Positions 7,725 through 42,915 of a DNA stretch of 64,000 bases are shown one piece after another (the first letter of the stretch is position 1; every line of letters begins with the position of its first letter). This stretch comes from Rhizobium sp. CCGE531. Lineage in GTDB: Bacteria > Pseudomonadota > Alphaproteobacteria > Rhizobiales > Rhizobiaceae. Made by a program: the position numbers and the translations under genes. A model generated the notes under the pieces. That model was not told the origin of the DNA, ran no database searches, and saw only the letters and a list, made by a program, of their open reading frames with translations. Where the stretch lies: NCBI RefSeq assembly GCF_003627795.1, contig NZ_CP032686.1, positions 310,001 through 374,000 of the forward strand. Reading direction: 5' to 3'.

Positions 7725-8036
7725 TGTTCTTCCCTCCATGGGTCGAAACAACATTGGCCAGACGGCAACTTTTGCGACAGGGCCCACATCGGTTCACTAC
7801 GGCATCCAAATGGCCGAAGGGAGTAACCAAAAGATTTAGCCGGGGATCGAAGCCTGCACACAAGGATATACCCACCCGCCTAAGAAACTGCAGGAACATC
7901 TCCTTCCCTGTCAGAAATGATAAGCCCTGTTGCTTCGGTAGGGGATTTACACGCTATGCGTTCGACTGCTGATCTCGTTGCATGGCGCCCTCGGTTGCCT
8001 GACGGCGCAAGCGACACGAAAGCGAGATTTCGGCTC
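7725..8036. other. Divergent intergenic region, no gene seen
   Basis: This 312-base stretch separates the divergent GT4 gene and the ExoF-like gene, so it must hold both promoters. I see no convincing palindrome or confident -35/-10 pair. An in-frame ATG at 7917 could extend the ExoF-like protein by 40 residues, but these do not look like a signal peptide. Confidence 0.5.
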
Positions 8037-9377
8037 ATGTTTAGAGTTTCAGCTTTGCCTTACCATTCCATCTCCAGGCCGCCTCGGCTCATGGCGCCAT
8101 GGCTGCTGGCATTGATGCTTTCCAGCGCGGGCGTGTTCCAAACCACCAATGTCGCCGCGGCGAGCGAGGTGTACCACGTCGGACCGCAGGCCCGGATCAA
8201 GATCGCCATTGTCGAATGGATCGCCGCAACCGGCGAATACAAGGAATGGACGGCGCTGAACGGCGAATATGTCGTGTCGCAATCGGGCTCGATTTCAATT
8301 CCGATGATCGGGCAGATGCAGGTCGGCGACAAGACCGTCGACGACATCAGTGCCAATATCGGCGAAAGGTTGAAGCAGATCACCGGCTTGGCGGTGGCGC
8401 CCACGGCTTCGGTCGAGGTTGTCAAATATCCGATGATTTACGTGTCCGGCGCAGTGGAGAAGCGGAGCGAGCTGGAATTCAGGCCGGGCCTGACCGTCAG
8501 GCAGGCGATCGCCATGGCCGGCGGGCGCGAGCGCCGCTCCAGCCAGACGGGGGATTCCTCCGAGGCGCAGCAGATCAGCTATGCGGGAGAAATCAGCCGT
8601 ATGGAGCTGCAGCTGAAGCAGCTCGGCGCGCGGCGGGCGCGCCTGATGGCGGAGCTCAATGATCAGCCGGCAATCACATTTCCGCCGGAGATCAAGGCAG
8701 CGCCGCAAGGATCGGCGGTCTCGCAGATCATGACGAGCGAGCTCGATCTGTTCAATGCCAGGGCCGAGGCCTTGCGCCAGCAACTTGCCGCGGCCGCGGA
8801 TCTGGAAGTGCTGTTGCGCAACGAAATCAACATTCTCGATGAGAAGATGTCGTCGCAGGACGAGCAGGTGAAGATTGCGCAGGATGAATTGAGCGATATT
8901 TCCAAGCTGGTCGACACCAAGATCCTGACGACGTCTCGCAAGACCTCGCTGGAACGGATCGTTGCCGAGATGCAGGCCGGCAAGCTGGACCTCGTCGTCG
9001 CATCGATGCAGGCAAAGCAGAAGCTGAACGAGACCGAGCGCGACGCACTCAATCTCAAAGGCCAGCGCAAGACGGAAGCCGGACAACAGCTCCAGATCGC
9101 CGAGACGGAAATGGAGGATACGAAGCTCAAGCGAAACACGACGCTGCAGCTGCTGCAGATTTCCGGCGCCTCGCTCACGCGTAGCCAGAGCATGAAGGCG
9201 CTCGATCTCCAGCCACTTGAATACTGGATCACCCGAAACGGCGACGAGGCCGCAGCCATCAAGGCGTCGGAAGCGACCGAGCTGCAGCCAGGGGATGTTC
9301 TCGATGTGCGCTACAATATTTCCGGAAGCCTGGACGGCACGACGCTTTCGTCGGTCGATGCCGGTCAATCGCAATAA
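8037..9377 (+). CDS. ExoF-like polysaccharide export protein
   Basis: About 446 residues. An N-terminal hydrophobic segment (MAPWLLALMLSSAGVFQTTNVAAAS) acts as signal sequence. It is followed by a polysaccharide export (Wza/SLBB-type) domain: YHVGPQARIKIAIVEW, GEYVVSQSGSISIPMIGQMQVG and VSGAVEKRSELEFRPGLTVRQAIAMAGG. The C-terminal half is Gln/Glu/Lys-rich and predicted coiled coil, as in the rhizobial ExoF group, where it reaches across the periplasm towards the Wzz-type partner. No Wza-style lipobox is seen. It is followed after 26 bases by the Wzz/BY-kinase-like gene, the usual ExoF-ExoP pairing. The ATG at 8037 was preferred; 8091 and 7917 are alternatives. Confidence 0.88.
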   Translation: MFRVSALPYHSISRPPRLMAPWLLALMLSSAGVFQTTNVAAASEVYHVGPQARIKIAIVEWIAATGEYKEWTALNGEYVVSQSGSISIPMIGQMQVGDKTVDDISANIGERLKQITGLAVAPTASVEVVKYPMIYVSGAVEKRSELEFRPGLTVRQAIAMAGGRERRSSQTGDSSEAQQISYAGEISRMELQLKQLGARRARLMAELNDQPAITFPPEIKAAPQGSAVSQIMTSELDLFNARAEALRQQLAAAADLEVLLRNEINILDEKMSSQDEQVKIAQDELSDISKLVDTKILTTSRKTSLERIVAEMQAGKLDLVVASMQAKQKLNETERDALNLKGQRKTEAGQQLQIAETEMEDTKLKRNTTLQLLQISGASLTRSQSMKALDLQPLEYWITRNGDEAAAIKASEATELQPGDVLDVRYNISGSLDGTTLSSVDAGQSQ

Positions 9378-9403
9378 CGATAAGTGAGCCAAGGGGGCGA
9401 GTG

Positions 9404-12400
9404 ATGGTAGTTCACGAGATCGGCAAAGGCTTGCGCAGCACGCCGTCGGACAGCAAGACCATGGGGGACAGCGAATATATTTCGTTTCGCGATGTCTGGC
9501 GTTTCGTACAGCGCCACTGGCTGATTTTTGCCTTGTTCACCGCCGCCGGCCTTGGCATCGGCATCTTCTACACGGTCACGACCCAACCGATCTATCTGGC
9601 GACTACACGCCTCGTCATGGATCCGGACCAGGGGCGCATCGTCTCGCAGGATGCATTCACCGGCACGGTCATCATCGAGGCCGCCGAAATTGCAAGCCAG
9701 GTCGAGATCGTCAAATCGGAGGCGATCGCACGCGCCGTTGTCCAGAAACTCAACCTCACCGAAGACCCCGAGATCATAGGCGGCATGTCATGGCAGGCCG
9801 CCTTGCGCGACAGGATGCGCGCGATCGCCAGTTATTTCAGGTATGGCGACGACGGCGCAAAGACCGAGGCCAGCGACGACGACGTGATGCGCCGGACCAT
9901 GGCATCATTCCTCTCTCGGGTTTCCGTCAATCGCGTCGGCCAATCCTATATTCTCGAGATCGGGTACAGCTCGGTCGATCCCACCAAGGCGGCGCAGGCG
10001 GCAAATGCAATTGCGGAAGCCTATATCAGCACCGGCCTGTCCGACCGCGCTTCCGCCGCGCAGAGCGGCGCCAGATGGCTGGAGACACGCCTGATCGAAG
10101 TCGGCAGGCAGGCGCGCGAAGCATCCATGGGCGTGGAGGAGTTTCGCGCCAAGAACGGCATCATGGAGATCAGTAAGTCCTCATCCCTCGATCAGCAGCA
10201 GCTGTCCGAAATCAGCAGTCAGGCCGTTGCGGCCAAAGCGCAGACCGCGGCCGAATCGGCCAAGCTTGTGACTCTCAACCAGCTGATGGCGGGCAGCAAG
10301 ATTGAGGGGGATGTCGACGAGACGATGAACAACCCGCGCATACAGAAGCTGCAGGAAGATCTCGGAGTCGCAACGACCAAGCTCAACAACCTTAGAAGCC
10401 GGTATGATGCCGACAATCCAGCCGTCATTGCCGCCCAGCAGGAAATCGATCGGGTAAAGGGTGACATGCGCAAGGAGTTCGAGCGCATCCAGTCCGTCTA
10501 CAGGGCAAATCTGGATGTCGCCAAGACCCGCGAGAGGCTTCTGAGTGACGAGTTGACCTCATTGAAGGATGCGGGAACGGACAAGAACTTGGCGCGGGTG
10601 GAGCTGTCGGAGATGGAAAGCCGGGCCACCACCTATCGCCGGATGTACGAAAGCATATTGCAGCAGCTGATCGGTGCGCTGCAGAAGGAATCCTTTCCCC
10701 TTGGCAATGTTCGCGTCGTGACGGCTGCCGCGGTGCCGCTTTCAAAGACCTGGCCGAAATCCTCTTTCGTGCTGCCCTTTACGGCCATGCTTGGTCTGGC
10801 GGCCGGCGTCATGGCGGCTCTTTTGCGGGATGGTCTGGATCGGCGCGTCAGCTCCAGCGAGAAACTGCGGCGCGAATTGGGGATCAGCTCCCTGGGCCAT
10901 GTTCCTGTCTATGTAAGCCCACCGTTCCTGTCCGGAAGCATGGTGGCGACGAATGCCACGTGGCGACGAACGATGCTGCCGCTGAGATCCGTGCTGGATA
11001 CGCCCTATTCGCAATTTTCCGAAGCCCTGCGCGGCGTCAAGCATTCGATCGACTCCGCTTTCCCGCCGAATGCGCCGATGGTGGTCGGCATCACCTCGGT
11101 CGGCACCGGCGAGGGCAAGACCACGATCGCAACCAATCTCGCACAACTCTACCAGCATGAGGGCGCATCCGTCGTGTTGATCGATGCCGACTTCCTCAAT
11201 GCAAGACTGAGCTGCGTGGTGACCGAGTCCGGCACGGAATTCGGCATGGAGGCGCTGAGCATCAACGACGTGCCGCGCCGCTATGCAGTTGCCCAGGAGG
11301 GTGGCCTGCTCGTTGCCAAGTCCGATCATGAGCCCGAGGCGGAAATCGTGCAGGGCCATGGGGGTGTTCCGGTCGTCACCGTCGACGAGACCGAAAAATC
11401 CGTCGCCACCTTTCAGCGCTATGGGCATCTGCCGGCGCTGAAGGCCGAGATCGACCTGCTGCGGCGGCGATACAAGGTCGTCATCGTCGACATGTCGGCT
11501 TTCGAGGATTCCGCCGATACCCGCGTCATCTGCAGCTATCTCGAAGGTATCATCGTGGTCGTCGGCCAGACGAACAAGATGACCGTCGAACGATTGTCGG
11601 ATGCGCTTGCAAGCTTCGGCACGTCGGCGATCAATGTCCTCGGCATCATCGCCAACCGCAGCTACGAGAAACGTCATGGCCAGCAGACGCGCCTTTGGCG
11701 TCGCAGACTGGATGGACGTCAGGTGCGTGCGTCCGCAAGGCGCCTCACGGGCCACGCGACGAGCCGTCCCTTGAAGATCGCCCTAGGCATCGCAAGCTCG
11801 GGCCGCCGCGATATCCTGTCGTCCATTCTTCCGCATATCGCCAATCAGACGCGCAAACCCGACGAGATTATTGTCTGCCTGTCCTCGCCGGAGGATATCG
11901 ATCCGAGCTGCCTTCGAAATCTCGACATTCCAGTCCAGGTTCTGATCTCCGAACGCGGTCTTTGCCGTCAGCGCAACAGGATCCTCGACAACGTCAAGCA
12001 TGCGGACGTCGTTCTTTTCCTCGACGACGATTTTCTGATGACCTCGACCTATGTCGAGGAAGCGGAACGGCTGTTCCAGCTCCAGCCGGACGTGGCCATG
12101 TGTACCGGCAAGGTCCTGGCGGACGGCATCACCGGTCCTGGCATCTCCGTTCGCGACGGCTTACGCTTGGTCGATGGCAAGCGCCGGCGGCGATCCGAGC
12201 CTGCCATGCAGATTCGGCCAATCTACAATGCCTATGGCTGTAATATGGCAATCCGCATGGCGATCGTCAGAGCCGCCGCGCTGCGCTTCGACGAGAACCT
12301 GCCTTTCTATGGCTGGCTCGAGGATGTCGATTTCAGCAGGCTCGTTGCCCACTACGGCCTGGTTGTCAGCGCCAGGCAGCTGGAAGGTGTCCACCTCGGC

Positions 12401-12658
12401 ACCAAGGGCGGCCGGGCGGGCGGCGTCCGTCTCGGCTATTCGCAGATCGCCAACCCGCTTTACCTCATGCGCAAGCGGACCATGAGCGTGCCGCAGGCCG
12501 CAGCCCAGATCGGCCGCAATCTTGCCGCCAATCTCGTCAAGGTCTGGCGGCCGGAGCCCTGGGTCGATCGCAAGGGACGGCTGAAGGGCAACGTCATGGC
12601 ATTTCGCGATCTGCTCAAAGGCAGGCTGGCGCCACAGAATATTGAAGCATTGGAGTAG
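9404..12658 (+). CDS. Wzz/BY-kinase-like chain-length protein fused to a GT2 glycosyltransferase
   Basis: A 1084-residue fusion. Residues about 20-470 form a Wzz/GumC co-polymerase: membrane helix WLIFALFTAAGLGIGIFYTV, long periplasmic coiled coils, second helix SSFVLPFTAMLGLAAGVMAAL. Residues about 555-740 are a BY-kinase-type P-loop domain (GITSVGTGEGKTTIATNLAQLY). However, the Walker A' (VVLIDADFLNARL) and Walker B (VVIVDMSAFED) are unusual, and no C-terminal tyrosine cluster is present. From about residue 789 a GT2 domain begins (LKIALGIASSGRRDILSSIL) with VVLFLDDDFLM and GWLEDVDFS. The frame is continuous; a TTG at about 11771 could start the GT2 part separately but has no clear ribosome site. 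ATG 9404 follows AAGGGGG. Confidence 0.88.
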   Translation: MVVHEIGKGLRSTPSDSKTMGDSEYISFRDVWRFVQRHWLIFALFTAAGLGIGIFYTVTTQPIYLATTRLVMDPDQGRIVSQDAFTGTVIIEAAEIASQVEIVKSEAIARAVVQKLNLTEDPEIIGGMSWQAALRDRMRAIASYFRYGDDGAKTEASDDDVMRRTMASFLSRVSVNRVGQSYILEIGYSSVDPTKAAQAANAIAEAYISTGLSDRASAAQSGARWLETRLIEVGRQAREASMGVEEFRAKNGIMEISKSSSLDQQQLSEISSQAVAAKAQTAAESAKLVTLNQLMAGSKIEGDVDETMNNPRIQKLQEDLGVATTKLNNLRSRYDADNPAVIAAQQEIDRVKGDMRKEFERIQSVYRANLDVAKTRERLLSDELTSLKDAGTDKNLARVELSEMESRATTYRRMYESILQQLIGALQKESFPLGNVRVVTAAAVPLSKTWPKSSFVLPFTAMLGLAAGVMAALLRDGLDRRVSSSEKLRRELGISSLGHVPVYVSPPFLSGSMVATNATWRRTMLPLRSVLDTPYSQFSEALRGVKHSIDSAFPPNAPMVVGITSVGTGEGKTTIATNLAQLYQHEGASVVLIDADFLNARLSCVVTESGTEFGMEALSINDVPRRYAVAQEGGLLVAKSDHEPEAEIVQGHGGVPVVTVDETEKSVATFQRYGHLPALKAEIDLLRRRYKVVIVDMSAFEDSADTRVICSYLEGIIVVVGQTNKMTVERLSDALASFGTSAINVLGIIANRSYEKRHGQQTRLWRRRLDGRQVRASARRLTGHATSRPLKIALGIASSGRRDILSSILPHIANQTRKPDEIIVCLSSPEDIDPSCLRNLDIPVQVLISERGLCRQRNRILDNVKHADVVLFLDDDFLMTSTYVEEAERLFQLQPDVAMCTGKVLADGITGPGISVRDGLRLVDGKRRRRSEPAMQIRPIYNAYGCNMAIRMAIVRAAALRFDENLPFYGWLEDVDFSRLVAHYGLVVSARQLEGVHLGTKGGRAGGVRLGYSQIANPLYLMRKRTMSVPQAAAQIGRNLAANLVKVWRPEPWVDRKGRLKGNVMAFRDLLKGRLAPQNIEALE

Positions 12659-12662
12659 TCCG

Positions 12663-13970
12663 GTGGCGCCTCCGTTCGGTCTCGATCGCGTCGTCGTCAT
12701 CAACGATCGCTCCGTCCGGGTGGGCGGAGCATCAAATCTCGCGATTCTTTCGGCCGATTTGCTGCGGAGTGCGGGGGTCGCGGTGACCTATTTCGCCGGC
12801 GATGCCGCCGGGTCCGACCCGCCGGCAGCGGAAACCATCAATCTGGCGGCGCAGCCGTTGATGCAGCAGGCGCGTCTCAGCGCATTCGCCAGCGGTCTTT
12901 ACAGCCGCCAAGCCCATGCCTCGCTGAAGGATCTCATTTCGCGCATCGACACCGAAGGCACCATCTATCACGTCCATGGCTGGTCGAAGATCCTCTCGCC
13001 TTCGATCTTTCGCGCTCTATGGCCTGTCCGCGAGCGCGTCGTCTTGCATGCCCACGACTATTTTCTCTCCTGTCCGAATGGAGGGTTCGCCAATTACCGC
13101 AAAAACCAGGTCTGCCCCCTGGCGCCGATGTCGATCGGATGCCTGACGACAAATTGCGACAAGCGCGGCTATCACGAGAAGATCTGGCGATCCGCGCGCC
13201 ATCTGGTGCGGGAGCATTATTATCCCGTCCGGCAGGTTGCCGCCAATATCGTGGTCGTCCATCAGCGCATGCGCGATTATTTCGTGCGCGGGCAAGTGCA
13301 GACGAGCAACATAGAAACGATCCGCAATCCGGTCGAGCCCTTCCTCACGCGTCCGACGGATCCGTGGAAAAAGCGCGATTTCTTCTTTGTCGGGCGGCTT
13401 GAGCCGGAAAAGGGATTCGAGGACGCGGCGATCGCGGCGCGGCTAGCCGGCGTCAAGCTGCACATCATAGGTGACGGCGCCGGCCGGGCGCGCCTGGAAA
13501 AGGACTTTCCGGAGGTCGTCATTCATGGCTGGAAATCCAAGGACGAGATGCGCGTCATTCTCGAGGAGGCGCGCGCGCTCGTCGTTTCGTCGCGGGTGCC
13601 CGAACCCTTCGGTCTGGCGGCGCTCGAGGCGGTAACAAGCGGCATACCCGTGATTCTACCCGACGCCGCACTTCTGGGCGAAGAGCTTGCAACGCTTGGA
13701 TGTGGGATTACCTTTCAGAGCGGCAAGGTGGAGACGCTCGCAAGCGGAATCCGCCGGCTTGCCGGCGACGATATGCTACTTCGTTTGATGAGCGTGAACT
13801 GCATCCGCCGGTCGGGCGACCTGGCCCACACGCCGGCATCGTGGCTCGAGGCTCTGCTGACGCTGTACGACGGTGTTCTGAAGCGCGCAAATGCGGTCAG
13901 GATGCCCCCAGGAACGACCATGGACGCTGACATTCCGGCCGCGGGTCGGCTGATCGATGAGACGAGCTGA
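12663..13970 (+). CDS. Glycosyltransferase family 4 protein
   Basis: A 435-residue GT-B glycosyltransferase. The N-terminal acceptor domain carries a cysteine-containing stretch (SCPNGGFANYRKNQVCPLAP, then CLTTNCDKRGYHEKIW) seen in several exopolysaccharide GT4 enzymes. The donor domain reads FFVGRLEPEKGFEDAAIAARLAG, HIIGDGAGRARLE and RVPEPFGLAALEAVTSGIPVILPD. The chosen start is GTG at 12663 with GGAG about 8 bases upstream. A TTG at 12642 would overlap the previous gene by 17 bases. It directly follows the BY-kinase/GT2 fusion and is co-oriented, so it belongs to the same operon. Sugar donor and acceptor are unknown. Confidence 0.9.
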   Translation: MAPPFGLDRVVVINDRSVRVGGASNLAILSADLLRSAGVAVTYFAGDAAGSDPPAAETINLAAQPLMQQARLSAFASGLYSRQAHASLKDLISRIDTEGTIYHVHGWSKILSPSIFRALWPVRERVVLHAHDYFLSCPNGGFANYRKNQVCPLAPMSIGCLTTNCDKRGYHEKIWRSARHLVREHYYPVRQVAANIVVVHQRMRDYFVRGQVQTSNIETIRNPVEPFLTRPTDPWKKRDFFFVGRLEPEKGFEDAAIAARLAGVKLHIIGDGAGRARLEKDFPEVVIHGWKSKDEMRVILEEARALVVSSRVPEPFGLAALEAVTSGIPVILPDAALLGEELATLGCGITFQSGKVETLASGIRRLAGDDMLLRLMSVNCIRRSGDLAHTPASWLEALLTLYDGVLKRANAVRMPPGTTMDADIPAAGRLIDETS

Positions 13971-14100
13971 CGCTTGTGGTTAGATGCGCGTTCGCCCCCT
14001 ACGCCAATGGGACTAGCCCAATGCCCGCAGGGTCAATTGTCAATGATGAGGGCAGCTGGCAGCCTCTGAAAGAAGCATACGGGTGGTGAGGGCCAGAGCC

Positions 14101-14793
14101 ATGTTATCGACTGTTGACGGCGTTGCCCACGGCGAGAGAGCTCGCCGCGACGTGAAGCGGGCGGAACGGCAGGGCCGCTCCAAACGCATTGCCGACATTC
14201 TTCTTTCCGGAGTAGGATTGCTGTTTCTGGCGCCGGCGCTGCTTGCGATCGCGATCGTATTGCTCCTGGTCGACGGCCGTCCCATCATCTATCGCCACAC
14301 ACGCATCGGCCGCGACGGCCGCCCGTTCGAATGCCTGAAATTCCGCACGATGCGCAAGGATGCCGACCGGCAGCTGGCAGAGCTTCTGGCTCGCGACGAG
14401 AACCGAAGGCTGGAATGGCTGTCCACGCAGAAGCTGACGAGCGATCCGCGCGTTCATTGGTTCGGAAAATATCTGCGGATGAGCAGTGCCGACGAGCTGC
14501 CCCAATTGCTGAATGTTCAGCGTGGCGACATGAGCCTGGTCGGGCCTCGCCCCGTCGTTGCCGCGGAACTCGAGCGCTACGGATCCGACCTCTATTGCTA
14601 TCTGGGGGTGCGGCCCGGCATCACCGGTCTTTGGCAAGTCAGCCGCCGCGCCGACACCACCTATGAAGAGCGCGTCCAATTCGATCTGGACTATTTCCAC
14701 AGCCGTTCGATGCGCACCGACTTTGCCATTCTCGTCAAAACCGCCGGCGTCGTACTGCTCGCGCGCAATGAAAAAGAACGTCTCACCAAATGA
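14101..14793 (+). CDS. ExoY-like undecaprenyl-phosphate sugar transferase
   Basis: A 230-residue member of the bacterial sugar transferase family (polyprenyl-phosphate phosphoglycosyl transferase, monotopic type), which starts a lipid-linked repeat unit by moving a sugar-1-phosphate to undecaprenyl phosphate. Seen: a basic N-terminus, hydrophobic re-entrant helix IADILLSGVGLLFLAPALLAIAIVLLL, the CLKFRTMRKDADRQ motif, SSADELPQLLNVQRGDMSLVGPRP (catalytic Asp-Glu) and VRPGITGLWQVSRR. The short N-terminus without extra membrane helices matches ExoY rather than WbaP. Start at the second ATG, with GAGGG upstream; a GTG six codons earlier is possible. Which sugar is moved cannot be told. Confidence 0.92.
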   Translation: MLSTVDGVAHGERARRDVKRAERQGRSKRIADILLSGVGLLFLAPALLAIAIVLLLVDGRPIIYRHTRIGRDGRPFECLKFRTMRKDADRQLAELLARDENRRLEWLSTQKLTSDPRVHWFGKYLRMSSADELPQLLNVQRGDMSLVGPRPVVAAELERYGSDLYCYLGVRPGITGLWQVSRRADTTYEERVQFDLDYFHSRSMRTDFAILVKTAGVVLLARNEKERLTK

Positions 14794-16744: not shown

Positions 16745-16778
16745 TGGCGGCGACCAGCTGGCACGGACGAGGAGAGGG

Positions 16779-23041: not shown

Positions 23042-23093
23042 TTCTTCCCCTTATGGCTCGGCTCTTTCCACGCCATTGGACGAATCGAATGGG

Positions 23094-31600: not shown

Positions 31601-33701
31601 CTTGCAGAAAGGAAGCCGTCGTTGTGGCGTCGGCGCGAACGGACACCATCGCGCCCTGCGGCTGATGCTGCATCAGCCGCCCGCGATTGGCCACGAGGCG
31701 CAGTCCGTCTTCGAAGGAAATGACGTTGGCGAGCGTTGCGGCAACAAACTCGCCAACGCTGTGACCGATCATGGCATACGGTTTGACGCCGCGGCTGAGC
31801 CACAATCGGGCAAGCGCATATTCGACAAGGTAGAGACAGGGTTGGGCGATCCGGGTTTCGCGTTGTTCGTCGGTGATCGCCTGCGTTACCGGGCCGGTGT
31901 GGCAGATGTAGTCACGCAGGTCGAGGCCGAGAGTCATTTTCAGAAGCTCGGAACCACGATCGATCCAGCGGGCAAATTCCGGCTCGGAGCTGTAGAGGCC
32001 GGCGCCCATGCCGACATATTGGGCGCCCTGACCGGGAAACATGAACGCAACCGGCGGCCGATCCGCGGCAACGAGCGATTGATAGCTGTCTGTCGTCAGC
32101 TTGATGATCGCTTCCTCGACACTTCCGGCGGCAACCGCCAGCCGATGGCCGAACTCGCGCCGCCCCGATTGCAGCGTGTAGGCAAGCTGCGCGATCGAAA
32201 GCTTCGGGTTCTCGGCGAGATGGTTACTCAAATTGGTGCGCATCTGCGCAAGGGCCGGCTTGTCGCGCGCCGAAAGGGGGAGGATGTAGTGCCCTTCTAC
32301 CTCTTTGGACGTAGTCGATGGATGAGGAGCCTCCTCCAAAACGACATGGACATTCGTACCGCCGACGCCGAATGCGCTCACCCCGGCTCTGCGCGGCACC
32401 TGCCCCTGCGGCCAGTCGATCATTGCGGTCGGAATGTAGAAGGGACTTCCTTCGAGATTGATGCGTGGATTGGGCTGAAGATAATTCGGCATCGGCGGGA
32501 TTTTTGCGCTCTGAAGCGCCAGCGCCGTCTTGATGAGCCCGGTTACGCCGGCTGCTGCATCCGTATGGCCGATGGTGCCCTTGACCGATCCAAGCGCGCA
32601 ACTGGCGGCTCCCGGCGCGCCGTCCGCAAAGGCTCTCGTCAGGCCATTGAACTCGATGGGATCGCCGAGCGGCGTCGCGGTGCCGTGGCATTCGATATAG
32701 CCGATCGTCGAGGGGTCGACGCCCGCATTAGCGATCGCGGTGGCGATCGCCTCGGCTTGCCCCTCCACGCTCGGCGCCGTGAAACCGATCTTGTCGCTGC
32801 CGTCATTGTTGATGCCGTAGCCGCGAATGAGCGCATAGATATGATCGCCATCCTGAAGCGCATCCTCATAGCGCTTCAGGAGAACGACGCCGGCGCCGCT
32901 CGCAAAGACCGTCCCGGCGGCGTCGGCGTCGAAAGGTCGGCAGGTGCCATCCGGCGAGGCCATGCCGCCTTCCTGATAGATGTAGCCCCTCTTTTGCGGA
33001 ATGGTGACCGAGATGCCGCCGGCAAGAGCCATGTCGCAGCCATAGGTAAGCAGATTCTGACACGCCTGTGAAACGGCAAGAAGCGAGGTCGAGCATGCCG
33101 ACTGCAGCGTGAAGGCGGGGCCGCGCAGGTTGAACTTGTAGGCGACGCGGGTTGACAACGTATCGTTGAGCGCGCCGACAAGCTCATGGAACGAGCCGAT
33201 CTGGTAGTTCGATGTGAACTCCTCCGCCTTGACGCGATCGCGCAGGACGTTGTTGATCAGATAGGTCGGCATCGAGGAGCCGGCGAAGACGCCGATCGGG
33301 CCGGCATAGCGCTGCGGATCGTATCCCCCGTCCTCGAGCGCTTCCCAGCATATTTCCAGGAAGATGCGATGCTGCGGATCGGTGACGGCAGCCTCGCGCG
33401 GAAACATGCCGAAGAATTCGGCGTCGAACATATCGGCATTGTCGAGATGAGGTCTTGCGGCGACATAATTCGGCTGTGCCCGCTCCTCGTCGGTGAACGC
33501 GTCTTCGATTTCATCCGGCGAGAAACGGGAAAAGGCGTTCTTTCCTTCGAGCACGAGCTTCCAAAGTTCATCGACGGAGGGGGCGCCCGGGAAACGACCG
33601 GACATGCCGATAATGGCGATGTGCCCGGAAATTTGTCCGTTCAGATCCTCGCTCTCTTCGAAATCACGCTGTTCGCCCTTCTCCTGGTGACTTCGTTTCA
33701 T
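25623..33701 (-). CDS. Hybrid PKS-NRPS: KS-AT-ACP-aminotransferase-C-A-PCP
   Basis: A 2692-residue megasynthase. KS (28-460): Cys203 (SACSTS), His339 (ECHGTA), His379 (GTIGHTD). AT (550-850): Ser648 in GHSVGE, and HAFH (744-747), the malonyl-CoA type. ACP: Ser989 in LGFDSL. An Ala/Pro/Met/Gln linker follows, then a class III PLP aminotransferase (1150-1605) with FDEVVTGFR and Lys1446 (TYGKVVGGGMPIG), as in MycA/McyE-type synthases. C (1635-2070): intact HHIICDG at 1760. A (2080-2570): FTSGSTGMPKG, SFDIAGLEL, YKTGD, NGKLDRK; the pocket reads roughly DILQLGMIW, resembling glycine codes from memory. PCP: Ser2624 in LGADSL. No ketoreductase, so the beta-keto group should become a beta-amine. Overlaps both neighbours by 4 bases. 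Confidence 0.95.
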   Translation of the reverse strand: MKRSHQEKGEQRDFEESEDLNGQISGHIAIIGMSGRFPGAPSVDELWKLVLEGKNAFSRFSPDEIEDAFTDEERAQPNYVAARPHLDNADMFDAEFFGMFPREAAVTDPQHRIFLEICWEALEDGGYDPQRYAGPIGVFAGSSMPTYLINNVLRDRVKAEEFTSNYQIGSFHELVGALNDTLSTRVAYKFNLRGPAFTLQSACSTSLLAVSQACQNLLTYGCDMALAGGISVTIPQKRGYIYQEGGMASPDGTCRPFDADAAGTVFASGAGVVLLKRYEDALQDGDHIYALIRGYGINNDGSDKIGFTAPSVEGQAEAIATAIANAGVDPSTIGYIECHGTATPLGDPIEFNGLTRAFADGAPGAASCALGSVKGTIGHTDAAAGVTGLIKTALALQSAKIPPMPNYLQPNPRINLEGSPFYIPTAMIDWPQGQVPRRAGVSAFGVGGTNVHVVLEEAPHPSTTSKEVEGHYILPLSARDKPALAQMRTNLSNHLAENPKLSIAQLAYTLQSGRREFGHRLAVAAGSVEEAIIKLTTDSYQSLVAADRPPVAFMFPGQGAQYVGMGAGLYSSEPEFARWIDRGSELLKMTLGLDLRDYICHTGPVTQAITDEQRETRIAQPCLYLVEYALARLWLSRGVKPYAMIGHSVGEFVAATLANVISFEDGLRLVANRGRLMQHQPQGAMVSVRADATTTASFLQGDAEIAAINAPKLCVISGPFGDIDKVCAALEAADIAFSRVHTSHAFHSAMMKDAALALRQETEKVTYGTATLPFISGVTGDWQTAELMTSPNYWAMHCRDAVRFADGLVTLCRDRKPVLLEVGPGRTLSVFAAQTIARDELAAVVQSLPEHDRASSAAETLAEAHGKVWMAGCRLSWPALPSAARRRLSLPTYPFQRQRHWIDAPPSARRASSLSASANPESHPENGPFVSDVNITEEKQAMNVAASISISSRLPQLETALLTLLSDMSGETLGPDERAATFLELGFDSLFVGQFAQRIEKDFKVKISFRELLSDIPSVADLAVHLDQQMPPEAIKAAEPAPSAAAIAAAPMPVMSAPIVSAPIMPAATQAAAMPAAASDLATVLQSQIQMAQTLFSQQLLMLQAMQSGAQPPLTSGAMPVAAVAPVPQPTISAPSAPAATESDFGTERIKLYRPNAKSLAPEITAAKQDFITSLTKAYETKNAKSKSFTQGHRGHLADPRSASGFRADWKEMVFPIVCDHSKGAYIWDVDGNQYVDLVNGFGQTAFGHAPDFVIDAVKAQADRGFAIGPQTPLAGDVAKMIAEVTGHERVTFCNTGSEAVMAAMRLARAVTGRDRVVVFANDYHGQFDEVLVKGRNRADKPIALPVASGIPMASVSNMTVLRYGAPESLDFIRANAADIAAVIIEPIQSRHPELQPREFVLELRDIATKSEFALVFDEVVTGFRVDPGGMQAIWGIKGDMATYGKVVGGGMPIGVLVGSPRFMDALDGGYWDYGDSSVPMTAPTFFAGTFVRHPLTLAAADAVLHHIKGEGSALYSRVAERTEALVAEIRADLARRGIADVVHGYKSWFATDFSSQDPLGALFYAQMRLNGVHIQDGYPCFLTTAHSEDDFRTIAKAFRDSLDAMQGVGIFTAKEDPSVSAKPTQASVARPDSAPLTEAQTEIWLAAQAGDEASCSFNESFSLTLEGTLDETAIRKAFDTVIARHDAFHIRFDRGGEHFRFIPDFKLDLPILEDIDDQGLAILVDDDAHTPFDLINGPLVRASIVKLAADRHVLVFTAHHIICDGWSINTFVEELTAAYEALRTGNGPEFQPALSFATYSTELSPRPEKSQATEQFWLDQFKTVPDLPDLPLDRPRPEYRSFAGGSCTGYIDADVYKALKKKGAKSGATLFSTLLATLQVMISRLSGQDDIVIAIPSAGQSLLDGQILVGHCVNLLPLRQAVSLTEPFADHLKATQQLVFQAFEHQDYTYGTLVRKLDTKRDPRRLPLTEIQFNLERMAGGSSFGDLKPTMEPNAKAFSNFDLFFNMIEAGDHIRIDVDYNADVFDRSTVERWISHFSTLAATLAKDMDHKVGELSLLSAEEKSWLVDDLNRTAVPHDHDQFVFSLFSKRAAEQPNAIAAQHDGQTLTYGELETRSNQLALYLQMALPDPGQRIAILVERSLNMIVALLAVMKAGHTYVPMDPAHPEPRLLQTLDIARIGGLICDSDDMARLASKDAPVIRLDQDAKAIGSMTGLALKTLPVDTTASAYIIFTSGSTGMPKGVEVSHRSLTNFLLSMAREPGFGADDTLVAVTTISFDIAGLELYLPLISGGKVVIASRSQVQDGFALVKLIDEQDATVLQATPTLWQMLVEAGLKERRTLKMLCGGEPLPRELARSLLGIGGELWNMYGPTETTIWSSLQRITDADQPITIGHPIDNTQLFILDQSENIAPVGVVGELYIGGDGLAEGYFDRLDLTEKAFVPHCFAIGRPMRLYKTGDVGRRLADGSLQLLGRRDQQVKLRGFRIELGDIEAVISKAEGVRQCATVVAENAKGDRSLVCYIVPDTAGNDALTADIAAHAKASLPGHMIPSFWVMESELPHTANGKLDRKALQQRGVPQRGAAPAKVQPKTEMEQRLLAIWQDVLSLSDIGIDDNLYALGADSLAIFRIAARMRDDGLPLEAKHLLRHPTIAALAAFADSQAEAPSDPVQLHIPSLRDFRNGARRGLGASL

Positions 33702-35611
33702 AAGGAGCTCCTGCGGATGTGAGAGATTGCTTTCTTTTGCAGTGCGGCGCGCTGGGCCGCCGCGGCAATCCGCGTTGGGCCAGGCGTCCTGCCGTCCAGA
33801 TAAAGTGCCAGTTCCCGGATGGTCGTATGGCGCAGCAATGCAACCACATCGATCGAACGACCGAGCCCTTCCTCAAGACCGGCATGAATTTCCATCAGTT
33901 GCAGGGAGGTGCCGCCAAGGTCGAAGAAGTTCCTGTCGACATCGACGGCGGCAAGGCTCAATGCATCCTGCCACAGCGCCGTCAACAGCTCTTCGGTCCG
34001 GCTCCTGGTATCCATCGGCTTCGCCTGCATTTCGACAGGCGGCGGCAAGAGTTTGGAGCGATCGACCTTGCCGGCTGCCGTGAGCGGCAGGGTGTCGACG
34101 ATGACGGCGGCGCTCGGGATCATATAGGCCGGGAGCGTCATGCGCAGCGTCGCCATGACGTCCTGCGTAAGGTCGGCGCCCGCGCCCATATGGCTTTCCT
34201 TGGGGCATAGATATGCAACGATGCGTTTCAGGTTCTCGCCCTGGACGTGGCAAAGGACGATGCCGTCGGTAAGGCGCGGATCACGCCTGAGCGCGGCTTC
34301 GATCTCGTCGAGCTCTATGCGCTTGCCATTGACCTTGACCTGCCTGTCGCGGCGTCCCTTGAAGGTAACGGTGCCATCAGGTTTCATGGAGGCCATGTCG
34401 CCGGTCAGATAGAAGCGTGTCGCGCCGTCCTTTGTGGCGATGGTCACGAATTTCTGCTCCGTCAGTTCCGGGTGCTTGAAATAGCCGATGGCCAGGCCAT
34501 CGCCCGATATCGCCAACTGGCCTTCGATCCCGGGCGGAACGACGCGCAATTCCTCGTCCAGGATGGCGATCCCTGTATGCGCGATAGCCTTGCCGATCGG
34601 CAGCTCGCCGCCTGAAAAACTGGGCAAGACTTGGAAAGCGGTAGCAAAGACCGTCGTCTCGGTCGGGCCGTAGACATTGGTAAGCTTGCAGCCGGGATGG
34701 TGTTCGAGAAAACGCCGGGCATGAACGGCCGAACCTACATCGCCACCGAAAAGAATATGACGAAGCTTCGGCAGGGATGCGCGGGCATGATCTGCAAAAA
34801 GATTGAACAACCCTGTCGTAAGGAAGGAGATGCTGACATCCGTCGCTCGCATGAAGTCGGACAGGCGCGAAATGGAAAAATCGGCATCCGGCATGATTGC
34901 CATTGTGCAACCATTGAGAAGCGCACCCCATATTTCGAAAGTCGACGCGTCGAAGGAAATAGTGGCCGTGTGAAGAATGACGTCGTCCCGGCGGAAATCG
35001 ATATAATTCTGGTCGAGAACGACCCGCGCAATGGCGCGATGGCAGATCATTGTTCCCTTGGGGCGCCCGGTCGAGCCGGACGTGTACATGATGTAGGCGA
35101 GATCGGCGCCGGTGATCGTCGGTGCTGTCGGAGCAACCCGCGGTTGGCTTGCCATTTCGGCGATAATGGCATTTGCCTCGATGACCTTGGCATTCATGCT
35201 CGGCACACTGCAAAGCTTATCGCCAAAAGCTGAATCGACGAAAATGACCTTCGGCAGGCATTCGCCGATGACGAAATCGAGATGTTCGATCGGGAGGGCG
35301 GGATCAAGCGGGAGATAGGCGCCGCCGGCCTTGAGGATCGCCACCTTGCAAATGATGGCGTTGGCGCTCCGCGGCAGGAAGAGACCGACAATATCGGCCC
35401 TGTGGACGCCGATCCTGACCAGATGCAACGCAAGCGCGTCGGATATCCGGTCGAGATCACGGTAGCTGAGCCTGGTGTCGCCATAGACAAGAGCGCTTGC
35501 CTCCGGTGTCGCCCGAGCCTGAATGCGCAGCATTTCGTGAAGGCAAAGGTTGCAATCGTAGTGCAGGCCCGCTGCACCAGTTGTTTCTGCTCGAGCCTCG
35601 TGGTCAATCAT
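33698..35611 (-). CDS. NRPS loading protein A-PCP
   Basis: A 637-residue stand-alone loading module. The adenylation domain (about 20-525) has YTSGSTGRPKGTM, SFDASTFEIWG, NVYGPTETTVF, YLTGD and the A10 lysine (TAAGKVDRSK, Lys515). The carrier has Ser569 (FFDLGGTSL). No condensation domain precedes it, so it should start the chain. Pocket residues read by eye as about DAFFLGVVF, closest in my memory to branched hydrophobic codes (Ile/Val type); this is a weak prediction. The chosen ATG (second of two) follows GGAGGG by about 5 bases; the open frame continues 85 codons upstream without coding character. It overlaps the PKS-NRPS gene by 4 bases, so the aminoacyl group probably passes to its ketosynthase. 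Confidence 0.93.
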   Translation of the reverse strand: MIDHEARAETTGAAGLHYDCNLCLHEMLRIQARATPEASALVYGDTRLSYRDLDRISDALALHLVRIGVHRADIVGLFLPRSANAIICKVAILKAGGAYLPLDPALPIEHLDFVIGECLPKVIFVDSAFGDKLCSVPSMNAKVIEANAIIAEMASQPRVAPTAPTITGADLAYIMYTSGSTGRPKGTMICHRAIARVVLDQNYIDFRRDDVILHTATISFDASTFEIWGALLNGCTMAIMPDADFSISRLSDFMRATDVSISFLTTGLFNLFADHARASLPKLRHILFGGDVGSAVHARRFLEHHPGCKLTNVYGPTETTVFATAFQVLPSFSGGELPIGKAIAHTGIAILDEELRVVPPGIEGQLAISGDGLAIGYFKHPELTEQKFVTIATKDGATRFYLTGDMASMKPDGTVTFKGRRDRQVKVNGKRIELDEIEAALRRDPRLTDGIVLCHVQGENLKRIVAYLCPKESHMGAGADLTQDVMATLRMTLPAYMIPSAAVIVDTLPLTAAGKVDRSKLLPPPVEMQAKPMDTRSRTEELLTALWQDALSLAAVDVDRNFFDLGGTSLQLMEIHAGLEEGLGRSIDVVALLRHTTIRELALYLDGRTPGPTRIAAAAQRAALQKKAISHIRRSSL

Positions 35612-35914
35612 CATCACCCTCCGGGTCATCCTGCGACTGACGATGGCACGGCATGCGATGCCTGATCGTCCATCGCAGAATTTCACGCTGCGGCAAAAGC
35701 ACCAGTTGATCATTGGGATGATCGTCCTCACCACCGAAAGTCGTAAGTCCTGGGGGTGCGTAGCCAATTCGTCGGAAACATCCGATACGGCGGTAACAAC
35801 TCGGCCAAAAGCATTACGCATGGCAGCAACGGCAACAGGCAACGAGTGCCATGCAAGGTACATTCTCAATCACGCTGATCGAGACGATGCTGAGTTGGGT
35901 TGGTGATGAGGCAG
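35612..35914. other. Upstream region of the NRPS operon, no gene
   Basis: About 300 bases between the GH16 glycanase stop and the A-PCP start, both minus strand. It must hold the NRPS operon promoter unless the operon is read through from the glycanase gene. I could not pick a confident -35/-10 pair or operator. The only open frames are arginine- or serine-rich extensions of the NRPS frame. Confidence 0.45.
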
Positions 35915-36769
35915 CTACCTGAACTGGTAGGCTCTGACGTAATCCACAAACATGAAGGATGGATCAGCCGCGGCCATCTTCGTTATGCCTTCGACGATAC
36001 CGAGATCGACGAGCATATACATGGGCTGGCGATGTTCTGGTAAAGCTCTGGTCTTCCAAACGAGCTTTCCATCGAAATACATTCGTATGAAATCGGAATC
36101 GATCTTCACGCCATAAGTGTGCAAATCACTGGGACTTGCGGCAGCGAATGCATCGATGCGGGCATAATCGGAATCGTGGCGCCCATCCCGGTGCCAGACA
36201 TGCGCTGTCGAGGAATAGGCACCCGGCTTATCACCATAATATTCGATGACGTCTATCTCGGCGGTGGCCTTTGAGCGATCTTTGCCGATCAGCCAGAAGG
36301 CCGGCCAGACACCGGGGCCATCGGGCAGTCGTGCCCGCATTTCGAAATAGCCATATTGCTGAGAGAAGCCATCTCCATTTCGATCGACGGAAGCAATCAG
36401 GCCGGAGCGCCATGCACCTTTGCCATCACGCGCCGCGGTAATGCGCAGCATGCCGTCCTGTATTGCAAAGGGGAAGTCGTTACCCGGATCGGAGAAGCGG
36501 GCACCTCCGAAATCACCATTCCACGGAGTATGGGAAATCCAGCGGGTGCCAGGCCCCCTGGCAGAGATACTGAGATCATCGAAAGGATCTTCGAATGTCA
36601 GCGTCATGCCGCTGACATCGAGCATATCCCCTGTGTCGCCAGCGCGTGCAATGTCGATGTCCACGATCGCAATGAGTGCGGCGGCAATAGACGCGCGAAG
36701 GAACCCGCGACGGTTGTGCAGGCATCGAGCAGGACATGTTTGTGAGAAGCGATCCATGTGCATAAGCAT
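35915..36769 (-). CDS. Secreted GH16 family glycanase (ExoK/ExsH-like)
   Basis: About 284 residues. A twin-arginine signal (NRRGFLRASIAAALIAIVDIDIARAG) predicts Tat export. The GH16 core includes YGYFEMRARLPDGPGVWPAFWLIG and the catalytic motif AEIDVIEYYG, whose two glutamates are nucleophile and acid/base in this family. GH16 enzymes cut beta-1,3 or mixed beta-glucan-like chains; in rhizobia such enzymes (ExoK) trim the exopolysaccharide made by the same locus. The start is uncertain: three ATG codons (36769, 36763, 36757) lie within five codons, and the frame runs on upstream. It is divergent from the polymerase gene and upstream of the NRPS operon on the same strand. Confidence 0.9.
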   Translation of the reverse strand: MLMHMDRFSQTCPARCLHNRRGFLRASIAAALIAIVDIDIARAGDTGDMLDVSGMTLTFEDPFDDLSISARGPGTRWISHTPWNGDFGGARFSDPGNDFPFAIQDGMLRITAARDGKGAWRSGLIASVDRNGDGFSQQYGYFEMRARLPDGPGVWPAFWLIGKDRSKATAEIDVIEYYGDKPGAYSSTAHVWHRDGRHDSDYARIDAFAAASPSDLHTYGVKIDSDFIRMYFDGKLVWKTRALPEHRQPMYMLVDLGIVEGITKMAAADPSFMFVDYVRAYQFR

Positions 36770-36906
36770 GAACGGCACAACCCGCAGGGTATAGAACGTA
36801 TTTCGGCCAGCATGTCCCCCAAAAGGCTTAGACACGGCGGAGATACAGTTGCACGGCTGCGTGGTAGTTTTTGGCAATAAAGAGGAAGAACACTAGGCGG
36901 ACACCT

Positions 36907-38331
36907 ATGAATTTCATGGGACTTATAACATTAATTGTCGGTATTGCGACATTGACTGCACCGGTTCGACTGGCATTCATCATCATGATCCTGTCGACGG
37001 TCTTTGGCGCTGCCGCCGCTTTCAGCGTACCCGGCCTTGGCGGAGCATCTGTGCTGGTGCCAAGCCTCTTTCTACTATTCTTCGCGGTCCGGTTGTTCGC
37101 AGCTTATGGCGAGGCGCATTTCCTCGCTTCCGTGGCACCCTGGCGTCCAGGCTTCTTCCTGCTGATTTTGACGGCATTTGGCATCTTCACCGCGATCTTC
37201 TTCCCGCGACTGTTTCAGGGTGTGGTGCAGACAATGACGGTGGAGCGCTCAATCGGCGCGCGTAGCCTTATCGCGCTGGTGCCGCTGCAATTTTCTTCGA
37301 ACAACATCACCCAATCGGTCTATGCCGCCGGTGGACTCATCTGCTTCATCGCCACTTTCGCCTTCTTTCGTGGCAACGGCGTTCCAAAAATTTTCATCAG
37401 CGGCATTTTGATAGTCGCGGGCGTCAACCTCGGTTTCGCGCTTGCCGATATCATCACGCATTTCACGCATACGGATTTCCTGCTCGATTTCGTGCGAACG
37501 GCCAACTACGCGCTTTTGACCAACGCTGAGAAAGGCGGACTAAAACGCATTTCCGGGACCTTTCCCGAAGCCTCGGCATTCGCCGATTTCACGCTCGTTC
37601 TCTTCGCGATCGTCACAAGCCTATGGCTCAGCGGCATTCGCTCCGGTGTGACCGGTGTCGTCGGGGGTTTGCTTCTTATGGCCCTGATCCTGTCGACATC
37701 GGCAACCGCCCTTGTCGGGCTTGCCATCATCCTGCCGGTCCTCTGCCTGCAGTCATTCCTGGCCGCTCGGCGCGACCCGGGCGCCGGCCGGCCAGTCCTG
37801 ATCGTATCCATTCTTGCCAGCATGCCGCTCGTCATCTTCTTCGTTCTGATCGTCATGCCGGATCTTGCGCATAATCTGCATGATTTTCTTGACGAAATGC
37901 TGTTCTCGAAGGCCGACAGCCAGTCCGGGCGCGAGCGCTTCATGTGGAATGCCATGGCTTATGAGGCGTTCGTGGATACCGGTGGATTTGGCGCGGGCCT
38001 TGGAAGTGCCCGCGCATCGAGCTTTGGCCTCGTTTTGTTGTCCAATATCGGCGTCTTCGGCACGGTGCTGTTTGCGCTTTTTGTCGGCCGAGTGCTGATG
38101 GCCGATACGCGGCCCGGGCATGCGTCATCACGCGAGGCCGTCGCGGTCGTCCGCGCGGCCAAGGCCGGCTTCATTACCGTCCTCATTTCCGCGGTTATCT
38201 CAGGCACGGTCTACGATCTCGGGTTGATGTTTTACATCCTCGCGGGCAGCGTTTCAGCGCTCACCGCCGGCATGCGCGTGGCCAAGGCTGGATATGACAC
38301 CCGCTTGAGCGCCGCTGGAGGTTTGAGATGA
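36907..38331 (+). CDS. Wzy-like polysaccharide polymerase (O-antigen ligase-like membrane protein)
   Basis: A 474-residue membrane protein with about 11-12 hydrophobic helices and a large loop before the last helices (DLAHNLHDFLDEMLFSKADSQSGRERFMWNAMAYEAFVDTGGFGAGLGSARASSFGLVLLSNIGVFGT). The R-x-x-x-W...G-x-G-x-G layout is typical of the O-antigen polymerase/ligase superfamily. It probably joins repeat units flipped by Wzx on the outer side of the inner membrane. The ATG at 36907 was chosen after AGGCGG; a TTG 12 codons earlier is unlikely. It overlaps the pyruvyl transferase gene by 4 bases. Confidence 0.87.
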   Translation: MNFMGLITLIVGIATLTAPVRLAFIIMILSTVFGAAAAFSVPGLGGASVLVPSLFLLFFAVRLFAAYGEAHFLASVAPWRPGFFLLILTAFGIFTAIFFPRLFQGVVQTMTVERSIGARSLIALVPLQFSSNNITQSVYAAGGLICFIATFAFFRGNGVPKIFISGILIVAGVNLGFALADIITHFTHTDFLLDFVRTANYALLTNAEKGGLKRISGTFPEASAFADFTLVLFAIVTSLWLSGIRSGVTGVVGGLLLMALILSTSATALVGLAIILPVLCLQSFLAARRDPGAGRPVLIVSILASMPLVIFFVLIVMPDLAHNLHDFLDEMLFSKADSQSGRERFMWNAMAYEAFVDTGGFGAGLGSARASSFGLVLLSNIGVFGTVLFALFVGRVLMADTRPGHASSREAVAVVRAAKAGFITVLISAVISGTVYDLGLMFYILAGSVSALTAGMRVAKAGYDTRLSAAGGLR

Positions 38332-39548
38332 AGATCGTCGTCTTCAACGTCAAGTATAGCGAGAATCTCGGCGACGGACTGCTCGCGGAATGCGTCGAAG
38401 CCGCCCTGACGAAAAGCGGCGACGAGATCGAGGTGGAAACGATCGATCTCGCCGGGCGTCGAGCCTATGCCGCAAGCAATGGCGGTCGCAGGCGCCTGGC
38501 GCTCGGATTGCTCCGCCGGTTGCCCTTCTTCGCCCGGCGGCGGCTCGTCCGCCTGGTGCTCGAGCGCAGGCTGAACAGGCTTCGCGGCCTGTGGGACGAC
38601 AAGATTGCCCTCGCGGACGCCGTCATTATCGGCGGCGGCAATTTGTTTCAGGACGACGACCTCAATTTTCCGCTGAAGATCGGTGAGGTGCTCGATTGCG
38701 TCTCGCGCTACGATCGTCCTCTGGCGGTTTACGCCGTCGGTGTCAGCAAGCAGTGGTCGGAGCCCGCCTACGATCTCTTCGCGCGATTGAGACGGACAAG
38801 GCTTGTTCATCTTTCCGTGCGGGACGGCTTTGCGCAGGACAACTGGCAGGAACACTTTCCCGAAGGACCGAGCGCGAAAATCGTGCGGGATCCGGGACTC
38901 TTGGTTCATGCGATGCCGATCGCGGAAAAACCCGCGTCATCCTCCAAGCGCCAGCTGACCGTCGGTCTATGCGTGACCGACCCCGTCATCCTGGACAGGC
39001 ACGGCAAGGATCATGCCTCCCACATCCCATTTTCCAGCATCGGTGCTTACCGGGATCTGATCGGAGTGCTTCTGGAAGATGGCCAGCGCGTCGTTTTATT
39101 TTGCAATGGTGCGAGGGAAGATCACTTATTTGCGGAGCGCATCCGGAATTCGGTCAGCAAGCATCGTGCCGTTGAAGCCGGTACGCTCGATATTGCCAGT
39201 CGCCCGCGGGTTCCGGCTGATCTCATTCAGACAATCCAGTCGATGGATGTGGTCCTGGCCCATAGGCTGCATGCCTGTATCGCGGCCTATGCCCTCAAAA
39301 TCCCGCATGTCGGCCTGAGCTGGGACAGTAAGGTCGAAGGTTTCTTCAATTCTGTCGGTCGCGAGGCCTATTTCATAAAAGATTCGCGATCGCCGGCCGT
39401 GCATGTCGCCCTGCTGCTGAAGGCGGCCGAAAAGGAAGGGATAGAGGCACTCCGGCACCGTGTCACAATTGCAGAAGCCCGAGCCGGAATCTCGAACATG
39501 CGCCGCCACTTGGTCGGAAGCGACGAATGCGCCATATCGGGAATATAA
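38328..39548 (+). CDS. Polysaccharide pyruvyl transferase family protein
   Basis: A 406-residue member of the PS_pyruv_trans family (CsaB/ExoV/WcaK type), which adds ketal pyruvate from phosphoenolpyruvate to a sugar of the repeat unit, giving acidic polysaccharide. Seen: N-terminal KIVVFNVKYSENLGDGLLAECVEAAL with the NLGD motif, ADAVIIGGGNLFQDDDLNFP, and the C-terminal DVVLAHRLHACIAAYALKIPHVGLSWDSKVEGFF, where the R-x-H residues are conserved in the family. It starts at an ATG overlapping the polymerase stop (ATGA), so the pair is translationally coupled and ends the plus-strand polysaccharide block. Confidence 0.9.
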   Translation: MKIVVFNVKYSENLGDGLLAECVEAALTKSGDEIEVETIDLAGRRAYAASNGGRRRLALGLLRRLPFFARRRLVRLVLERRLNRLRGLWDDKIALADAVIIGGGNLFQDDDLNFPLKIGEVLDCVSRYDRPLAVYAVGVSKQWSEPAYDLFARLRRTRLVHLSVRDGFAQDNWQEHFPEGPSAKIVRDPGLLVHAMPIAEKPASSSKRQLTVGLCVTDPVILDRHGKDHASHIPFSSIGAYRDLIGVLLEDGQRVVLFCNGAREDHLFAERIRNSVSKHRAVEAGTLDIASRPRVPADLIQTIQSMDVVLAHRLHACIAAYALKIPHVGLSWDSKVEGFFNSVGREAYFIKDSRSPAVHVALLLKAAEKEGIEALRHRVTIAEARAGISNMRRHLVGSDECAISGI

Positions 39549-42910: not shown

Positions 42911-42915
42911 ATCGG

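Follow-up and report, generated by a model that had tools for sequence, protein, structure and literature searches.

Bacterial polysaccharides carry small substituents, and in the Dlt system adenylation and a carrier serve the D-alanylation of teichoic acids. Among rhizobial polysaccharide genes, the K-antigen region of Sinorhizobium encodes RkpA, a type I polyketide synthase (PKS)/fatty acid synthase-like protein, and exopolysaccharide (EPS) loci of the exosortase A type carry an acyl-CoA ligase. PKS modules with an embedded aminotransferase are known from mycosubtilin (MycA) and microcystin (McyE), with the domain order ketosynthase (KS), acyltransferase (AT), acyl carrier (ACP), aminotransferase (AMT), condensation (C), adenylation (A) and peptidyl carrier (PCP). 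Here we analyze a stretch of 64,000 nucleotides from Rhizobium sp. CCGE531 (contig NZ_CP032686.1, “the window”), in which a nonribosomal peptide synthetase (NRPS)/PKS assembly line of 12.7 kb is flanked on both sides by the halves of one Wzx/Wzy-type EPS locus.

According to Pfam the line reads A-PCP, KS-AT-ACP-AMT-C-A-PCP and C-PCP-TE, where TE denotes a thioesterase domain. Its large protein resembles MycA and McyE in holding all seven domains in one chain with intact catalytic motifs. These two make free lipopeptides or cyclic peptides, whereas the line in the window is short, starts with an amino-acid A-PCP protein and lies inside an EPS locus. With Dlt it would share the use of adenylation and carrier chemistry for decorating a surface polymer. 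However, Dlt moves a single D-alanine outside the membrane by its own membrane proteins, while the window encodes a PKS/NRPS chain that includes an AMT and a TE, and among the genes of the block Pfam recognized no Dlt-like transfer gene. RkpA is by its description set apart, as it is not an NRPS with an aminotransferase. The exosortase A type loci also have an acyl-activating enzyme among EPS genes, and the corresponding family TIGR03098 is a weak, below-cut-off match of the window's A domain, but they carry a single ligase and not a multimodular synthetase.

A rhizobial EPS with pyruvyl groups is the succinoglycan-like polymer of R. tropici CIAT 899, which carries acetyl and pyruvyl groups and is made by an exo cluster (PMC3557214). 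That article's text contains none of the terms nonribosomal, non-ribosomal, NRPS and polyketide. However, R. freirei PRF 81, which we take to be the Rhizobium sp. PRF 81 of the same article, carries the block (L023). NRPS clusters were described in two Rhizobium strains, and the passages concerned draw no link to EPS (PMC9354803). The first-pass annotation of the window knew of no rhizobial EPS locus with an NRPS/PKS core; likewise, we found no published description of an NRPS built into an EPS locus in searches of the open-access PMC literature.

Association of the assembly line with the EPS locus

The NRPS very probably belongs to the EPS locus. The initiating transferase, flippase, glycosyltransferases, Wzz-like protein and export protein all score above the Pfam cut-off and represent a Wzx/Wzy-type EPS set (Table 1). 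Pfam agrees with the first-pass annotation on the domain order of the three NRPS/PKS genes, on the DegT aminotransferase and the Sfp-type phosphopantetheinyl transferase (PPTase), and on the polysaccharide genes to the left (export, Wzz, GT2, GT4, Bac_transf, flippase) and right (GH16, pyruvyl transferase). The neighbouring NRPS genes do overlap by 4 bases, and the PPTase gene overlaps the last gene of the operon by 31 bases, convergent on the 3' end of the formyltransferase-like gene. The Wzy call is tentative: the protein has no Pfam match, and we retain the name because its sequence by eye looks multi-membrane and four distant paralogues lie in ordinary EPS loci. The earlier description did not include the GMC oxidoreductase, the TIGR04325 methyltransferase and the A-less last module with its altered C domain.

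Gene content in relatives was assessed in plasmid records with at least 60% identity to the large protein at their best place; of 14 such records we used 13, the remaining one being a second record of a strain already included. The export protein, Wzz, GT2, GT4, sugar transferase, flippase, TIGR04325 protein, DegT, PPTase, GINT1_N protein, the three NRPS genes, GH16, Wzy, pyruvyl transferase and LuxR regulator are present in all 13 replicons. The GMC oxidoreductase is found in 11 (missing in L111 and L118) and the Crp regulator in 10 (missing in L114-L116). Rhizobium SL42 (L002) holds the identical gene set in a rearranged order. The Wzz/kinase-like and GT2 parts are one open reading frame (ORF) in the window and two genes in SL42, Sinorhizobium and Ensifer (L002, L114-L117). 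The window itself has a nearly identical counterpart in plasmid pRCCGE532c from Rhizobium sp. CCGE532 (L001), where both NRPS proteins searched are 100% identical.

The phyletic pattern was determined in 61 genomes, that is the window's own (G000), 36 of the same genus and 24 from further families of its order. Thirteen of them carry the last NRPS protein, and exactly these 13 have a Wzy orthologue (at least 60% identity); the other 48 have neither, and the next-best Wzy matches reach at most 40% identity. Neither the NRPS without the polysaccharide genes nor an uninterrupted version of this polysaccharide locus, both named by the first-pass annotation among the signs against a functional link, was encountered among these rhizobia. 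The four Wzy paralogues inspected are surrounded by ordinary EPS genes, with no NRPS. The TIGR04325 gene is present in 12 of the 13 NRPS-carrying genomes and in none of the 48 others; the exception (G030) holds another Wzx-like gene instead in the fetched stretch. For eight of the NRPS-carrying Rhizobium genomes (13 in total), the window's own among them, both condensation domains found belong to this line, which therefore is their only NRPS.

For a wider view we surveyed the best 80 of at least 581 relatives. Lines that follow the order A-PCP, KS-AT-AMT, C-A-PCP and C, the last optionally joined by A, PCP and TE, were found in Alpha-, Beta- and Gammaproteobacteria, Acidobacteria, Verrucomicrobia and cyanobacteria; EPS-linked members are seen in the three proteobacterial classes, Acidobacteria and Verrucomicrobia. 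A locus was regarded as EPS-linked if it had at least two of seven marker classes or a Bac_transf gene within 40 kb. Gene and marker calls in most loci rely on our own HMMs and codon model, whose training proteins were mainly alphaproteobacterial, so EPS genes are probably under-counted in distant phyla. In a quick AMT tree the window falls into a clade of 23 Hyphomicrobiales and Rhodobacterales rows (SH-aLRT 96), 21 of which are EPS-linked; the two others are L061, a short contig with a sugar transferase and two glycosyltransferases, and L076 without a marker. Over the whole tree 46 of 89 rows are EPS-linked. The link between NRPS and EPS is frequent, not universal.

The EPS loci of Loktanella, Jannaschia, Lysobacter and Dyella also contain the line. 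In Lysobacter MMG2 and Dyella jiangningensis, both outside the window's clade, it lies among a sugar transferase, a Wzy_C protein, a polysaccharide deacetylase and glycosyltransferases, with a flippase, UDP-sugar dehydrogenase and epimerase in addition in Lysobacter and an adjoining GMC oxidoreductase in Dyella.

Proximity to Bac_transf genes was calculated for 46 genomes from the best 80 loci, chosen mainly for long contigs (34 loci were left out). The gene lies within 30 kb of the AMT domain in 29 of the 46 and within 40 kb in 31, where gene density alone would lead to approximately 1.6 genomes. As a control, one of 24 other NRPS clusters (in Nostoc) has a Bac_transf gene within 30 kb; this control is small, with 10 clusters in 19 of the 46 genomes and 14 in Rhizobium genomes, some on short contigs that hide neighbours. 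The resulting Fisher p of 8e-7 (29/46 vs 1/24) is optimistic, as the genomes are related, at least one is shared between the sets and short contigs restrict the view in both. If a genome possesses a single Bac_transf gene (13 cases), this gene adjoins the NRPS in 11. Of the 19 control genomes, 13 have all condensation domains found in this line.

Predicted chemistry and the terminal protein

The motifs of KS, AT, ACP, AMT, C1, both A domains and all PCPs are intact. The AT motif HAFH is presumably of the malonyl type. The AMT has mycosubtilin MycA as its best PDB match (380 bits vs 184 for glutamate-1-semialdehyde aminomutase). The code of the A domain after the AMT starts with DILQ, which we take to be the glycine type, in 52 of 79 loci and in all 22 counted in the window's clade. 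The first A domain is variable: one code, presumably valine type, occurs in 31 of 68 loci, codes are diverse within the window's clade, and the window's A1 is taken as Ile/Val-like. These tentative assignments combine columns of our own alignment with PheA reference positions and Gly, Val and Ile codes, and one of the 68 first-A entries is wrong through a mis-split of L028, whose A2 was taken from a separate reading. The predicted chain would consist of a branched-chain residue, a malonyl extension with beta-amination and a glycine, i.e. a 3,4-diamino acyl-glycine.

The last protein differs from a canonical terminal module (C-A-PCP-TE) by the absence of an A domain and of the HHxxxDG motif: its C domain reads HQSCFDG, lacking the second catalytic histidine, vs HHIICDG in C1. 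We compared 61 loci with a readable line end; five loci with a different architecture were excluded, as were those in which the strand carried fewer than two C domains. Both histidines are retained in 13 of 17 C domains followed by an A domain and in 8 of 25 of the A-less C-PCP-TE type. The corresponding counts are 6/6 for A-less C-PCP without TE, 2/2 for C-PCP-TE-PCP, 1/9 for C fused to TE and 0/2 for bare C (one unreadable). The number of independent changes to glutamine is small, as many of these cases are close rhizobial kin, and the glutamine cases L034 and L052 go against the trend in having an A domain.

Purifying selection acts on the altered C domain as strongly as on C1. In three Rhizobium pairs its ratio of nonsynonymous to synonymous substitution rates (dN/dS) is 0.05-0.08, compared to approximately 0.08 for C1; the small PCP behind it has 0.14-0.24 (73 codons, low dS). 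A simple decay of the last module is rejected by these values. The TE nucleophile is cysteine in 39 of 53 loci and in all 18 counted in the window's clade; solved relatives of this TE are weak, the best being NocB at E 0.003.

In nine loci the C domain is fused directly to the TE with no carrier domain found in between (L033 at 14467-16656, L032, L036, L037, L039, L040, L048, L050 and L057), and in eight of these the second histidine is replaced. As such PCP-less versions leave no carrier-bound acceptor of their own, the last protein could be a transfer device and not an elongation module, its C domain probably having lost condensation.

Proposed decoration of the polymer and alternative explanations

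We give about even chances to what we regard as the best single explanation, that the NRPS is a dedicated EPS-tailoring synthetase, whose short acyl-peptide decorates the polymer by attachment to its repeat unit. The dedication is well supported, and the attachment is the step we infer. The arguments are the co-inheritance with EPS genes, the Wzy pattern, the proximity, the linkage in the AMT clade and the Lysobacter and Dyella loci. Further support comes from the line often being the only NRPS, from Wzx being the only exporter listed for the block in L001 and L002, from the MycA-like AMT, the sugar-type DegT (best PDB match 8-amino-Kdo transaminase, next perosamine synthetase) and the selected, altered C domain.

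The route could be as follows. A1 would load a branched-chain amino acid (Ile/Val-like), KS-AT would add malonate and the AMT would convert the beta-keto group to a beta-amine, leading to a 3,4-diamino acyl chain that C1 may couple to glycine from A2. The last protein, with its His-less C, its PCP without an A domain and its Cys-type TE, would add no residue and pass the acyl-glycine on. As its acceptor we consider most likely the amine of an amino sugar for whose synthesis the DegT enzyme is used; the formyltransferase-like/propeller protein perhaps assists this transfer. The decorated unit would then be flipped by Wzx, polymerized by Wzy, pyruvylated, exported and trimmed by GH16.

More tentatively, such loci might form a widespread unnamed class of nonribosomal peptidyl-polysaccharides, in which a line ending in a His-less C and a Cys-type TE puts a beta-aminated acyl-glycine directly on a sugar of the Wzx/Wzy repeat unit, making peptide and glycan assembly one pathway. 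Assembly-line peptide chemistry integrated into EPS biosynthesis would open a new way of placing functional groups on matrix polymers. These groups could bring positive charge, metal binding or host recognition. Genome mining would classify this NRPS, the sole one in many of the genomes concerned, as the cluster of an orphan secondary metabolite. If the line does decorate the matrix, this would explain the lack of a known free product and make biofilm formation and plant interaction accessible to experiment across many genera.

Several observations weigh against decoration. Of the AMT-bearing loci, 43 of 89 fail the EPS rule, some being short contigs and some having single markers (a flippase in L049, a sugar transferase with GT2 in L071). 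Distant relatives carry the line without EPS genes nearby: L033, L039, L040, L048 and L050 of the Reyranella/Rhodospirillales group and Variovorax RA8 (L017) have no EPS marker over 20-38 kb, and the identified neighbours in L033 are DnaJ, GST, an acyl-CoA dehydrogenase and a hydrolase. The product can hence be useful without an adjoining EPS locus. Some EPS-linked loci are without a detected DegT or GMC, the last C domain keeps both histidines in Loktanella, Rhodobacter and Lysobacter, and no shared promoter motif was found, with one AT-rich match in the eight intergenic regions scanned in the window.

The main rival, which we regard as rather unlikely, is that the line makes a free diffusible peptide (a signal, surfactant, metal binder or antibiotic) under joint regulation with the biofilm matrix but unattached to it. 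The Variovorax and Reyranella-group loci would fit this, the TE could simply hydrolyse, and the curli genes next door suggest a biofilm gene neighbourhood. Against it stand the strict co-inheritance with this EPS's own Wzy and the recurrence of the line inside different EPS loci. In addition, Wzx is the sole exporter among the listed block genes of L001 and L002, and no peptide exporter, MbtH, TonB receptor or siderophore transport gene is annotated around the line in these two, with the restriction that gene tables can be incomplete. A siderophore NRPS cluster was rejected on the same annotation. The caution of the first-pass annotation holds: the product may decorate the polymer, or the pathways may merely be co-located or co-regulated.

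That the locus yields a small glycosylated peptide or a glycolipid, exported through Wzx, and hardly any polymer or none is improbable: the single set of sugar and peptide genes plus a flippase would allow for it, but the polymer genes (Wzz-like, export, Wzy-like, GH16) are kept in 13 of the 13 fetched rhizobial replicons. Chance co-location or recent insertion by mobile DNA is largely refuted and highly improbable. In its favour are the plasmid nature of the near-identical record and the presence of integrase and transposase genes 0.5-4 kb rightwards of the block. However, the integrase and the IS91-type transposase are outside the block without a tblastn match in L001 or L109-L119, and the phyletic pattern, synteny and the small proximity control reject this explanation.

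Gene table, accessory proteins and flanking region

Table 1. Genes of the block and the adjoining regulators in window coordinates.
Feature	Position	Strand	Basis and remarks
GT4 glycosyltransferase	6528..7787	-	Pfam PF00534/PF13692; also in other rhizobial loci
Polysaccharide export protein (Poly_export/SLBB)	8091..9377	+	Pfam PF02563 on ORF 7917-9377; start from codon-model call
Wzz-like/tyrosine-autokinase-like + GT2 fusion	9401..12658	+	Pfam PF02706, PF13807, PF00535
GT4 glycosyltransferase	12642..13970	+	Pfam
Initiating sugar transferase	14083..14793	+	Pfam PF02397, 195 bits
Wzx-type flippase	15089..16744	+	Pfam PF13440, PF01943; true start possibly further right
TIGR04325 methyltransferase	16779..17618	+	NCBIfam TIGR04325, 178 bits (cut-off 80)
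GMC oxidoreductase	17600..19330	-	Pfam PF05199
DegT/DnrJ aminotransferase	19544..20728	+	Pfam PF01041; closest solved relatives sugar-acting
Sfp-type PPTase	20730..21467	+	Pfam PF01648; likewise annotated in L001
Formyltransferase-like/GINT1_N protein, C-terminal propeller	21437..23041	-	Pfam PF24793; model pLDDT 88.8; fold searches
NRPS C-PCP-TE	23143..25626	-	Pfam; C motif HQSCFDG, TE nucleophile Cys
Hybrid PKS/NRPS KS-AT-ACP-AMT-C-A-PCP	25623..33701	-	Pfam; active-site motifs intact
NRPS A-PCP loading protein	33698..35869	-	Pfam; start probably near 35629 (own start call)
GH16 glycanase	35915..36877	-	Pfam PF00722; start probably near 36769
Wzy-like polymerase	36907..38331	+	Without Pfam match; orthologue distribution
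Polysaccharide pyruvyl transferase	38328..39548	+	Pfam PF04230
Crp-type regulator	39777..40475	+	Pfam PF13545; in 10/13 fetched rhizobial replicons
LuxR-type regulator	40721..41503	+	Pfam PF00196; in 13/13 fetched rhizobial replicons

The gene at 21437-23041 had been called formyltransferase-like. Above the cut-off it has no formyltransferase match in Pfam, only GINT1_N; in the structural model the C-terminal part is a propeller and the N-terminal half is weakly formyltransferase-like. In a Foldseek search the formyltransferases 2cfi and 3tqq appear at E ~2e-5 with a TM-score of ~0.3-0.4. In a further fold search propeller matches fill the list and the rows covered residues 279-534, hence the N-terminal half was barely probed. 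Formyltransferases have the motif N-x-H, and the consensus of 55 relatives reads S-F-S where it might lie, as placed by eye. The family is large, with at least 368 matches at E 1e-20 or better, many rhizobial among the matches listed, and its propeller is sugar-enzyme-like.

For the TIGR04325 protein no solved relative was found by sequence. In Variovorax RA8 two TIGR04325 methyltransferases directly follow the line (L017, 24971-26649), with no EPS genes annotated over 38 kb; this arrangement suggests that the methyltransferase may belong to the peptide pathway.

The block is adjoined by curli-type genes (curlin repeats, CsgG) in the window (47347-50924) and in L001 (6439-9977), and L003 and L004 have curli genes next door as well (1-211). 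Homologues were also found in L109 and L119, and in Loktanella CsgG/HfaB genes are close to the NRPS locus. The stretch at 42011-45548, which separates the LuxR gene of the window from its curli genes, contains an integrase, an IS91-type transposase and IS630-like/DDE_3 genes. Flanking mobile DNA had been named beforehand as a sign against a functional link; these genes lie outside the block, and the insertion looks recent because the integrase and IS91 proteins are unmatched in L001 and L109-L119. An AT-rich inverted repeat of 22 bases at 40489-40510, between the Crp-type and the LuxR-type gene, could represent an operator.

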